Below are positions 5,690-7,282 of a DNA stretch of 28,063 nt, in pieces. The notes under the pieces are model-generated. The model did no database searches and was not told where the DNA came from. It saw only the letters and a program-made list of their open reading frames with translations. Position numbers and translations under genes: made by a program. Position 1 is the stretch's first letter. Each line of letters begins with the position of its first letter. Origin of the DNA: a virus; the IMG/VR virus record IMGVR_UViG_3300042567_000910, positions 1 through 28,063 of that record. One strand, given 5' to 3'.

Positions 5690-5974
5690 ATGCGAATAGC
5701 TGCACGAAAAGACCGCAATCAGGACGAGATAGTGAAGGCGCTACGGGGCGCAGGAGCCTATGTTAAGCCCATAAACCACGAGGGATTGTTTGATCTACTG
5801 GTATGGCACCAAGGTAAGACGTTCTTCCTTGAGGTGAAGGATGGCGACAAGCCGCCCAGCGCGCGCCGGCTAACCGATGCCGAGCAAAAGTTCCACGACG
5901 AATGGCCGGGTGATAACCTCTTTGTTGTTTGTAGTATTGACGAAGCACTTTACATCATCGCAAATCAACAGTAA
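5690..5974 (+). CDS. VRR-NUC-like small nuclease (PD-(D/E)XK fold)
   Basis: 94 residues from the ATG at 5690, preceded by AGGA at 6-base spacing; the longer frame from 5636 crosses the palindrome and has no ribosome site. E13, then GLFDLLV (32-38, D35), FFLEVK (45-50, E48 and K50) and RLTDAEQKFHDEWPG (60-74) follow the VRR-NUC/Holliday-junction-resolvase-like layout E...D...ExK. Stand-alone VRR-NUC proteins in phages can cut branched DNA. It would therefore suit the recombination module on the other side of the shared control region. A generic endonuclease of the same fold cannot be excluded. Confidence 0.75.
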   Translation: MRIAARKDRNQDEIVKALRGAGAYVKPINHEGLFDLLVWHQGKTFFLEVKDGDKPPSARRLTDAEQKFHDEWPGDNLFVVCSIDEALYIIANQQ

Positions 5975-6019
5975 GATTGCGCTGCACTGTTCATGGGTGC
6001 TTTCTCCTTGTTTGTGATT

Positions 6020-6047
6020 GCGGCTCCTTAACCGGGGCCGCTTTTTT
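6020..6047 (+). terminator. Intrinsic terminator after the VRR-NUC-like gene
   Basis: GCGGCTCC (6020-6027), a 6-base loop and GGGGCCGC (6034-6041) form an 8-bp stem with one wobble pair, followed by six T. It lies 46 bases after the stop at 5974 and closes this transcript before the gene-free region. Confidence 0.85.
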
Positions 6048-6059
6048 CCAAGGGCTAAG

Positions 6060-6129
6060 AAGATTGTGGAATGAGGCGCTTCACTGCGCTGCTGGACAAA
6101 TTTCAGCCGAGAGTGCATTCCACAGTCTT
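6060..6129 (+). ncRNA. Long stem-loop at the start of the gene-free region
   Basis: AAGATTGTGGAATG (6060-6073) pairs with CATTCCACAGTCTT (6116-6129) over 14 positions with a single U-G pair. Within the 42-base interior, GCGC/GCGC and GCTG/CAGC could form two smaller hairpins. No coding frame explains this symmetry. A structured RNA element is likely; its transcript is unknown. Confidence 0.5.
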
Positions 6130-6133
6130 GTTA

Positions 6134-6176
6134 GTGAAAACCGACACCGTGTCGGTTTTGGTGAAAACGTTTTCAC
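6134..6176. repeat. Two adjacent near-perfect palindromes
   Basis: AAAACCGACAC-C-GTGTCGGTTTT (6137-6159) has 11-bp arms around one base. One base further, GTGAAAACGTTTTCAC (6161-6176) is a perfect 16-bp palindrome. The word GTGAAAAC also starts the first unit (6134-6141). The first could act as a weak terminator (stem plus TTTT); the pair also resembles tandem operators. Confidence 0.55.
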
Positions 6177-6199
6177 TTAGACGCATGGGGATTATCAGC

Positions 6200-6229
6200 T
6201 TGCACTCTGTGCATTCAATTGGGTACATC
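6200..6229 (+). promoter_or_regulatory. Weak candidate promoter upstream of the hammerhead ribozyme
   Basis: TTGCAC (6200-6205), 18 bases, then TACATC (6224-6229). The -10 box is poor. It is listed because a plus-strand transcript across 6339-6384 is needed for the ribozyme to be made and no better box was seen in this stretch. Confidence 0.25.
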
Positions 6230-6338
6230 CAAGAGTAGTCTCCATTCGTGTTGGTGAAAGTAAATTACCCCGCTATGGGTACCGAGGAGTGGCCTAGCCC
6301 TCCCTTGAAGAAATCGGTTTGTAGCCGCCAACAACTAA

Positions 6339-6384
6339 CACGGCTGAAGAGGCTTGATGAGCCGAAACGCAATTGCGTCCCGTG
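6339..6384 (+). ncRNA. Hammerhead ribozyme, type I topology
   Basis: Every conserved core element is in order. Stem I 5' strand is CACGG (6339-6343). The core CUGAAGA (6344-6350) fits CUGANGA. Stem II is GGCU-UGAUG-AGCC (6351-6363) with the required G10.1-C11.1 pair. GAA (6364-6366) follows. Stem III is ACGC-AAUU-GCGU (6367-6378), giving the A15.1-U16.1 pair. C17 is at 6379 and stem I 3' strand is CCGUG (6380-6384). Cleavage is predicted between 6379 and 6380. Stems II and III are closed by loops and stem I is open, hence type I. An internal loop (UAA/GA) and three further pairs, AAC with GUU, may extend stem I, giving a place for the tertiary contact with loop II. Activity is inferred from the core. 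Confidence 0.8.
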
Positions 6385-6394
6385 GAGTTTCCCG

Positions 6395-6502
6395 TGTGGG
6401 GGAATAAATGGAAACCTTAGTGGTTCAACCTAAGCGCCTTCAATGAGGGCATTTAGGCCGCTGGTGTGCAACGGACCATGACTGCACACATCTTGCCCCA
6501 CA
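6395..6502 (+). ncRNA. Multi-branched RNA domain just downstream of the ribozyme
   Basis: TGTGGGG (6395-6401) pairs with CCCCACA (6496-6502) and encloses two strong hairpins. One is CCTAA-GC-GCCTTC (6429-6441) with GAGGGC-A-TTTAGG (6445-6457). The other is GTGTGCA (6464-6470) with TGCACAC (6483-6489), a perfect 7-bp stem. A different 5-bp pairing, CTTAG/CTAAG near 6416-6434, competes with the first. An A/T-rich run follows (6505-6526). If the hammerhead cuts, this domain would lie near the new 5' end of the downstream RNA. Confidence 0.5.
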
Positions 6503-6527
6503 ACTTATAAAATATTTTTAAAAAAGA

Positions 6528-6556
6528 TTGCGCAAACAGAAAAACTCGTGTAGAGT
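6528..6556 (+). promoter_or_regulatory. Sigma70-type promoter of the small RNA
   Basis: TTGCGC (6528-6533), 17 bases, TAGAGT (6551-6556), with start expected near 6563. The -10 context CGTGTAGAGT resembles GGTGTAAAGT in the promoter at 6984-7012, suggesting the two are recognised alike. Confidence 0.6.
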
Positions 6557-6562
6557 TCGTTC

Positions 6563-6666
6563 TGTTGTAGTCGATCACAACGAAGTAAGCCGTTTACTCA
6601 TGCATTTTGGCCTTCGGGGATTCTCGGAGGGATCGACCCGAAGTGCAGTAGTAAACGGCTTTTTTC
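6563..6666 (+). ncRNA. Terminator-bounded small RNA
   Basis: It runs from the predicted start near 6563 to a T-run at 6660-6665. A 5' hairpin GTTGT/ACAAC comes first (about 6564-6580). A very long 3' hairpin follows: AAGCCGTTTACT (6587-6598) with AGTAAACGGCTT (6650-6661), TGCA (6601-6604) with TGCA (6644-6647), CTTCGGG (6612-6618) with CCCGAAG (6637-6643), then GATTC with GGATC near the tip. The loop displays CGGAGGG, a Shine-Dalgarno-like sequence. The reading frames here look random. It may be an antisense or decoy RNA, or an elaborate terminator of the ribozyme transcript. I do not recognise an Rfam family. Confidence 0.6.
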
Positions 6667-6960
6667 ATTTGCGCGACGCCAACCCTCAGAGCGGGTTAGC
6701 TAACAGGCCAATGTCGGGGCCGTACTCAAGAAACCGATGCCGCTTTATAGACCCCCGGCGGCGCAGCGTTCCGTAGCGACTGCAGAAAACGAACAGAGCA
6801 AACCGACAAAGCGTCTGGCCCACGAAACGGGCGTTCGACAATTGAATACGGCGTTCAGCGAGCGGCAGGCAAGTAAGCTGGCCGGAGGTCCCCCAATACC
6901 TGAATACAGGGTGCAGATCGGGAGCCTCGGGGGTCTTCTAAAAGCTGTTATGCTGGCTGG
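6667..6960. other. Gene-free segment with further RNA-like structure
   Basis: No convincing gene is seen; the frames here lack ribosome sites and recognisable products. Local hairpins include AACCC/GGGTT (about 6680-6697), GCCGC/GCGGC (about 6740-6764), GCCC/GGGC with loop ACGAAAC (about 6819-6833) and ACCTG-AATA-CAGGGT (about 6898-6912). CCCCC near 6893 can pair with GGGGG near 6930, enclosing the last hairpin, and the helix extends outward after a mismatch. This suggests one or more structured RNAs rather than protein. A large phage RNA such as GOLLD was considered but not recognised. Confidence 0.4.
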
Positions 6961-6967
6961 TGTAAGA

Positions 6968-7012
6968 TAACAGGAACTAACTGTTGCATTTTTTATAAAG
7001 TTGGTGTAAAGT
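6968..7012 (+). promoter_or_regulatory. Promoter with operator-like words for the rightward small-gene operon
   Basis: TTGCAT (6984-6989), 17 bases, TAAAGT (7007-7012), start near 7019, 21 bases before the first ATG. Upstream and across the -35, TAACAGG (6968-6974) and CTGTTGCATT (6981-6990) repeat the words of the inverted repeat at 5586-5652, so the same regulator may control both. Confidence 0.65.
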
Positions 7013-7039
7013 GGAATTTCAACAAACGAAAGGAACGAC

Positions 7040-7282
7040 ATGGCGACAAGGAAAATGATAGAGGTACAGGGCAATGTGCCCGCAGCCGAGGCCGAAGCCA
7101 TCAAAACAAAAGTAGGCTTGGTGATGGACATGTCCGGCAAGGACGACGACACGAAGCTATCCGTACTTACCTTTGCTTTGGTTTTTACAGCGGTGAACGC
7201 CGGGGCTGAGTTTTCTAGCGTAATCAGGATGCTGGCAACGGTATACGAGGAGCAATTTCACTACGAAGGAGACGAGGAATGA
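7040..7282 (+). CDS. Hypothetical protein, first gene of the rightward early operon
   Basis: 80 residues, ATG at 7040 with AAAGGA upstream. The sequence is acidic at the end (YEEQFHYEGDEE) and otherwise helical (AEAEAIKTKVGLVMDMSG, then LTFALVFTAVNAGAEF). The middle stretch LTFALVFTAVNAGAEF is hydrophobic but short and probably buried rather than membrane-spanning. No family was recognised. As the first gene after a regulated promoter it may be an early host-interaction protein; that is inference. Its stop overlaps the next ATG (ATGA). Confidence 0.6.
   Translation: MATRKMIEVQGNVPAAEAEAIKTKVGLVMDMSGKDDDTKLSVLTFALVFTAVNAGAEFSSVIRMLATVYEEQFHYEGDEE

Follow-up and report, generated by a model that had tools for sequence, protein, structure and literature searches.

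A phage hammerhead ribozyme joined at its predicted cut site to a conserved, pseudoknotted and naturally permuted RNA domain

What hammerhead ribozymes do in phages has been an open question since they were listed in 2011, and a stretch of viral DNA from IMG/VR (record IMGVR_UViG_3300042567_000910, 28,063 nucleotides, hereafter the window) raises it again. A hammerhead sequence lies at 6339–6384 on the plus strand, in a block free of genes, and what it might process is not obvious from its position. We found that it is the 5′ module of one conserved, larger RNA (6328–6506) and not a lone ribozyme. This gives a partial answer to the question of what is processed, as the domain immediately downstream, which is conserved and pseudoknotted, begins right at the predicted cut.

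Reading the sequence, stem I is formed by 6339–6343 and 6380–6384 (CACGG/CCGUG), followed by the CUGAAGA core strand (6344–6350), stem II (6351–6354 with 6360–6363, where a fifth pair, U-G, is possible), GAA (6364–6366), stem III (6367–6370 with 6375–6378, including A15.1-U16.1) and C17 at 6379. The predicted cut is between 6379 and 6380. The type I class is defined by CUGANGA, GAA, an A15.1-U16.1 pair, a base other than G at H17 and three stems in type I order, all of which are present. The original prediction had described a complete hammerhead at this position, with the same stems and cleavage after 6379; on re-reading, every core position was there and the coordinates were correct. As far as a sequence definition can establish it, we confirm 6339–6384 as a complete type I hammerhead. 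The gene-free block of 1 kb in which it had been placed is also real (5975–7039), but contains further conserved non-coding sequence.

An Rfam search of 6250–6450 had been proposed as a check. The best match, to Hammerhead_1 (RF00163), reached 17.3 bits where the gathering score is 34, with E 0.12 across all families; no Rfam family reached its gathering threshold for the hammerhead stretch. The gathering score is the curators' cut-off and not a mechanistic feature; the relative L003 scores 28.7 bits against the same cut-off. The minimum free energy (MFE) fold of 6330–6395 is the hammerhead, with stem I lengthened by AACU/AGUU and a z-score of only −1.1. The MFE fold of the longer 6300–6512, from a method that cannot hold pseudoknots, lacks stem I, so folding context may matter. 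A strict matcher (full core required, stems of at least 5/4/4 bp) found one hammerhead in the window. In 60 Mb of first-order Markov sequence simulated with the same dinucleotide make-up it found none, for a chance expectation of fewer than about 0.003 per window. The window hammerhead is therefore not due to chance.

Similarity to the window extends well beyond the ribozyme. In BLAST comparisons, the relative L015 shares 6328–6506 at 88 per cent identity and many others share 6363–6471. The whole element, hammerhead plus core, was delimited at 6328–6506 (plus strand) from the stretch common to L015 and an alignment of nineteen elements of the same permutation, form A. Five helices make up its core, namely hairpins P5, P1 and P2 and two pseudoknots, P3 and P4, all parts being on the plus strand. 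Strand S3 (CCGUGGAG, 6380–6387), conserved as NCG[U/C]GGAG in all forms, is the 3′ strand of stem I before the predicted cut and would be the new 5′ end of the core after it. Hairpin P5 (6387–6415; 6387–6392 with 6410–6415), identified from the alignment and the strand-swap control described below, holds in its loop the 5′ strand of P4 (GUGGGG, 6396–6401), which forms a pseudoknot with CCCCAC at 6496–6501 and covaries across forms. The 5′ strand of P3 (GUGGUUC, 6420–6426) precedes hairpin P1 (6429–6457, from the alignment), a helix at which the RNA of forms B and C is open. Next come strand S1 (CCGCUGG, 6458–6464), a near copy of S3 in which U6462 covaries with A6408, and hairpin P2 (6464–6489; 6464–6469 with 6484–6489, from strand swapping). 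P3 joins the strand before P1 to the P2 loop, where its partner GGACCAU lies at 6473–6479 (again from strand swapping), and P4 joins the P5 loop to the conserved 3′ strand (AUCUUGCCCCACAAC, 6490–6504). Invariant loops, compensatory stem changes and gaps that are not in threes rule out a coding sequence.

Scanning IMG/VR for the hammerhead returned at least 21 loci, nearly all with the full motif. A second scan, using a pattern from the downstream part only, returned at least 119 stretches, and about nine in ten distinct matches were true relatives. Relatives were picked by the pattern CCC-N5-GGGGAAUAANUGG, so part of the conservation seen within it follows from the selection itself, whereas P2, P3, S1, S3 and the hammerhead all lie outside it. 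A pattern for S1 gave mostly chance matches, yet also added about 22 new members and variants of P5 among the matches listed. There were at least about 90 non-redundant examples, and omitting the window and a near-identical enterobacterial group left at least 92 elements. Viral sequences with the element number about a hundred or more and show it in two rearranged versions. Cultured carriers include the Pectobacterium phages Pappous and Taid, Dickeya phage Setonix, the Arthrobacter phages Constance and Karkharias, and Mycobacterium phage Gaia; a match in Mycobacterium phage MP1 was set aside, as no core was seen.

The distribution of the element is patchy, enriched in phages and marked by horizontal exchange. 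Only 4 of the first 119 matches listed in a scan of bacterial genomes were the element, compared with about nine in ten in viral contigs, and at least 15 of 5,426 E. coli genomes carry it, in prophages. Among the matches listed, it is absent from all 77 other loci that share the window's nuclease gene. The two closest loci (L023 and L024, about 95 per cent identical around the element) carry a different gene in its place: an ORF of about 140 codons, nuclease-like by eye, sits at the spot (L023:5183–5690, and in L024). A BLAST search of 5900–7100 against phages and plasmids had no match. Two viral contigs (L002:1339–1386 and L006:1821–1868, both minus strand) have full type I hammerheads without the core, followed by unrelated sequence.

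The relatives fall into three forms. Form A, the form of the window, has the order hammerhead, P5, P3, P1 hairpin, S1, P2 and 3′ strand. Form B begins with S1, P2 and the 3′ strand, followed by an internal hammerhead, P5 and P3; its open end is P1. Form C has a short linker where the hammerhead would be; the 34-nt linker of L105 was considered as another ribozyme, without Rfam support. Forms A and B are two circular permutations, and the permutation joint is the hammerhead site. Among the matches listed, the hammerhead is at the same place in every form A relative and in 53 of 73 form B/C relatives, and several of those without one hold variant or decayed hammerheads. The predicted cut is invariably just before the NCG[U/C]GGAG of the same core strand. 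A phage intergenic hammerhead, as the original prediction had it, is well supported by this recurrence. With about 75 related RNAs sharing the fixed place, most of them found by a pattern free of the hammerhead, chance becomes untenable. Mycobacterium phage Gaia and L117 have a paired U3/A8 change that preserves the hammerhead core. Variants of this type are known to be active (PMC3088659), and the change suggests that catalysis is maintained.

S1 and S3 are near copies (NCGUGG), and the base before CGUGG is identical in 69 of 71 sequences (69 of 73 in another count). P1 pairing was considered as the cause of this identity and fails in several sequences.

To assess the core helices, we exchanged strands between 67 distinct form B/C sequences in 200 swaps. 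This control preserves composition but not relatedness, and its margins are not to be taken as probabilities. Mean helix length fell on swapping from 7.9 to 4.8 bp for P3, 6.2 to 4.9 bp for P4, 6.0 to 3.7 bp for P5 and 5.0 to 3.3 bp for P2, each beyond all 200 swaps. Four helices, two of them pseudoknots, therefore pass the control, and in the alignment the P3 and P4 pairs are also possible in form A. MAFFT offsets P3 by one column between form A subfamilies, so P3 was judged by strand swapping and not by column counts. A distant pair also changes in concert from G..C to U..A (CGUG with ACUGG, or CG[U/C]U with AAUGG), with no exceptions among 71 permuted sequences (61 of one state, 10 of the other). 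The same is true of form A, where the window and L164 show the rarer state. Finally, a covariance model (R1) built from seventeen form A cores, with the window and L015 left out, matched the window at 6379–6508 (plus strand) with 115 bits and E = 3e-35, E-values being rough, and recovered P5, P1, P2 and the conserved strands in form A order.

The neighbours of the element vary widely and include Q, lysis, terminase, portal, head-tail and integrase genes and tRNA arrays. Among the matches listed, it lies among the tRNA genes at 18 of 25 tRNA-bearing loci, and 18 of 92 elements are within 250 nt of a tRNA compared with 6.5 expected. These elements are near tRNAs but not at fixed tRNA ends, and some sit inside a tRNA array or between two genes that converge. 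At most loci, element and neighbours share one direction. Form A is often found at the start of an operon: lambdoid prophages have it between Q and the lysis genes, L146 and L179 have it before terminase, and in the window it precedes the operon at 7040. Insertion strictly 3′ of terminators was rejected as a rule, being weakly enriched (5 of 88 upstream and 7 of 88 downstream, compared with 1.1 per cent in the control).

Transfer between phages is clearest for a lambdoid prophage (L007) and the T7-like Enterobacter phage SDFMU_EhYP, whose copies are 96 per cent identical. At both loci, the element replaces the 37–41-nt tip of a conserved stem just after a terminator, a stem also found in lambda, HK75 and phiKDA1. 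As lambdoid and T7-like phages have this stem in common, recombination in it suffices for the exchange. The stem itself (CACAACAGGUAAGAGCAYUG ... CAGUGCUCUUWCCGUUGUG; L211, lambda 44400–45300; L210, HK75; L212, the T7-like phiKDA1) has an exchangeable tip of 37–41 nt, and in HK75 a tRNA-like sequence is seen by eye behind it. In phage CUS-3, it is annotated only as a ‘boundary sequence’. Elsewhere, a small covarying hairpin with the loop GGAAAGAC occurs just 3′ of the element in L198, L116, L150, L153, L166 and L186, and in L198 it also precedes the element, as a 21-nt direct repeat.

What RNA would such an element produce? On balance we lean, by a small measure, towards a stable phage RNA that stands alone, with a ribozyme that either makes its 5′ end or nicks its chain. 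According to this model, 6328–6506 would encode a single RNA in which a type I hammerhead is joined at its cut site to the pseudoknotted core. We infer that the hammerhead cuts after C6379 and frees the core from the upstream transcript, leaving it with a 5′-OH end at CCGUGGAG; the product would be a discrete, processed non-coding RNA starting at NCGUGGAG. Folding of the core through its hairpins (P5, P1, P2) and pseudoknots (P3, P4) would give a stable RNA that probably acts on its own and not on one neighbouring gene. In form B, cutting at this site would nick the RNA at the equivalent place in the fold and give the same 5′-OH end, while in form C the two strands are simply joined. The module behaves as an accessory gene that phages acquire, lose and exchange. 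In favour of this model, a hammerhead precedes or interrupts the core, which was retrieved independently of it, in every form A relative and in most form B/C relatives. Diverse neighbours and tRNA clusters point to action in trans. Against the model, form C has no ribozyme, and cutting is thus not essential to the core; the form B cut would break the RNA in two, and a stable RNA would have no need of that; intrinsic terminators are directly downstream in a small minority (7 of 88 among the matches listed); and stem I is not kept in the MFE fold of the long transcript.

The position of the element ahead of late operons points instead to action in cis. A polycistronic phage mRNA could have its 5′ leader trimmed by the cut, which would leave a pseudoknot-covered 5′-OH that shields the message from 5′-end-dependent decay or otherwise tunes the downstream operon. 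The frequent placement of form A at operon heads (Q/lysis, terminase, the 7040 operon) and the shared direction of element and neighbours fit this idea. It is nonetheless rather doubtful, as the neighbours are not constant, some elements lie in tRNA arrays or between converging genes, and the form B cut is internal to the RNA. The core might also sense a ligand, protein or tRNA and switch the hammerhead, for example if S1 and S3, which share NCGUGG, are rivals for the 5′ strand of that ribozyme's stem I. The S1/S3 first-base identity, invariant loops that resemble a binding site or tertiary contacts, and the missing stem I in the long-transcript fold could all be read in this way. We consider such regulation unlikely: the identity mostly persists in sequences without a hammerhead and so is not only about stem I, the core occurs without the ribozyme, and the loops are partly inside the search pattern and hence conserved-looking by construction.

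The coincidence of permutation joint and hammerhead raises the prospect of a retrozyme-like mobile RNA, in which the hammerhead processes multimeric transcripts into unit-length RNAs or circles and these are copied back into DNA, a cycle that would also create the permutations. Movement between unrelated phages and the 21-nt repeat flanking L198 are compatible with this. However, the flanks of the other form A elements share 10 nt or less and homologous recombination in the shared stem explains the lambdoid/T7-like transfer, making this a very improbable account. We would give somewhat more credence, though still little, to a compound proposal in which the core represents a new class of RNA, catalytic or ligand-binding and perhaps a phage–host conflict effector carried with tRNAs, and has also spread through hammerhead-processed RNA circles as a prokaryotic counterpart of retrozymes, the source of the two circular permutations. 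Least plausible of all is a chance or dead hammerhead beside an unrelated conserved RNA. The sub-threshold Rfam score and weak folding z-score would suit it, but its absence from random sequence, its same position in about 75 relatives among the matches listed and the retained paired core change leave it scarcely believable.

The hammerhead alone belongs to a known kind. Type I hammerheads of phages and prophages (RF00163; Perreault et al. 2011, PMC3088659) have the same catalytic core, topology and intergenic location; such reports treat the hammerhead alone, and the text searched mentions no fixed downstream domain. PaP3 and Bcep176, phages with previously tested hammerheads, do not carry the core. 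RAGATH-1-hammerhead (RF03152) shares the hammerhead core and matches with only 13.7 bits over model positions 26–77, against a gathering score of 56.3. Theta ribozymes (PMC10879173) are likewise self-cleaving RNAs tied to phage tRNA genes, at the 3′ ends of phage tRNAs, but they are of a different, HDV-like class, directly abut the tRNA 3′ ends and have no separate conserved core; HDV-family models gave no match to the element in the Rfam search. Retrozymes and viroid-like RNA circles also combine a hammerhead with a compact non-coding unit, and circular permutation is expected in such cycles, whereas our element is phage-borne and has terminal-repeat anatomy in L198 only. GOLLD, ROOL and OLE are likewise ornate structured RNAs of phages or bacteria, far larger and without an Rfam match to the element. 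GOLLD occurs near phage tRNAs.

The core matches no model in Rfam 15, and tRNA, tmRNA, twister, HDV-like and other known RNAs were rejected as identities for it for lack of a match. We found no description of it in the open literature, which is what was searched, so an earlier description in subscription papers or preprints is possible. Within that scope, the composite RNA and its core appear to be new. A conserved partner fixed to the cut site makes the function of phage hammerheads testable through the partner domain, by asking which RNA end is made and what the product does. The family is pseudoknotted and naturally permuted with a ribozyme at the joint, its ribozyme-free variants are natural controls, and it occurs in cultured phages that grow on laboratory hosts, among them Mycobacterium phage Gaia and Arthrobacter phage Constance.

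The rest of the window's gene-free block has structure of its own. A second conserved non-coding block, at 6679–6990, is 81–95 per cent identical in at least nine related phages, with gaps that are not in threes; it folds into a long closed structure with five compensatory pairs and has no Rfam match. Upstream of the element, 6059–6176 holds an inverted repeat (AAGAUUGUGGAAUG/CAUUCCACAGUCUU) and two palindromes (AACCGACACCGTGTCGGTT and GTGAAAACGTTTTCAC), which are possibly operators.
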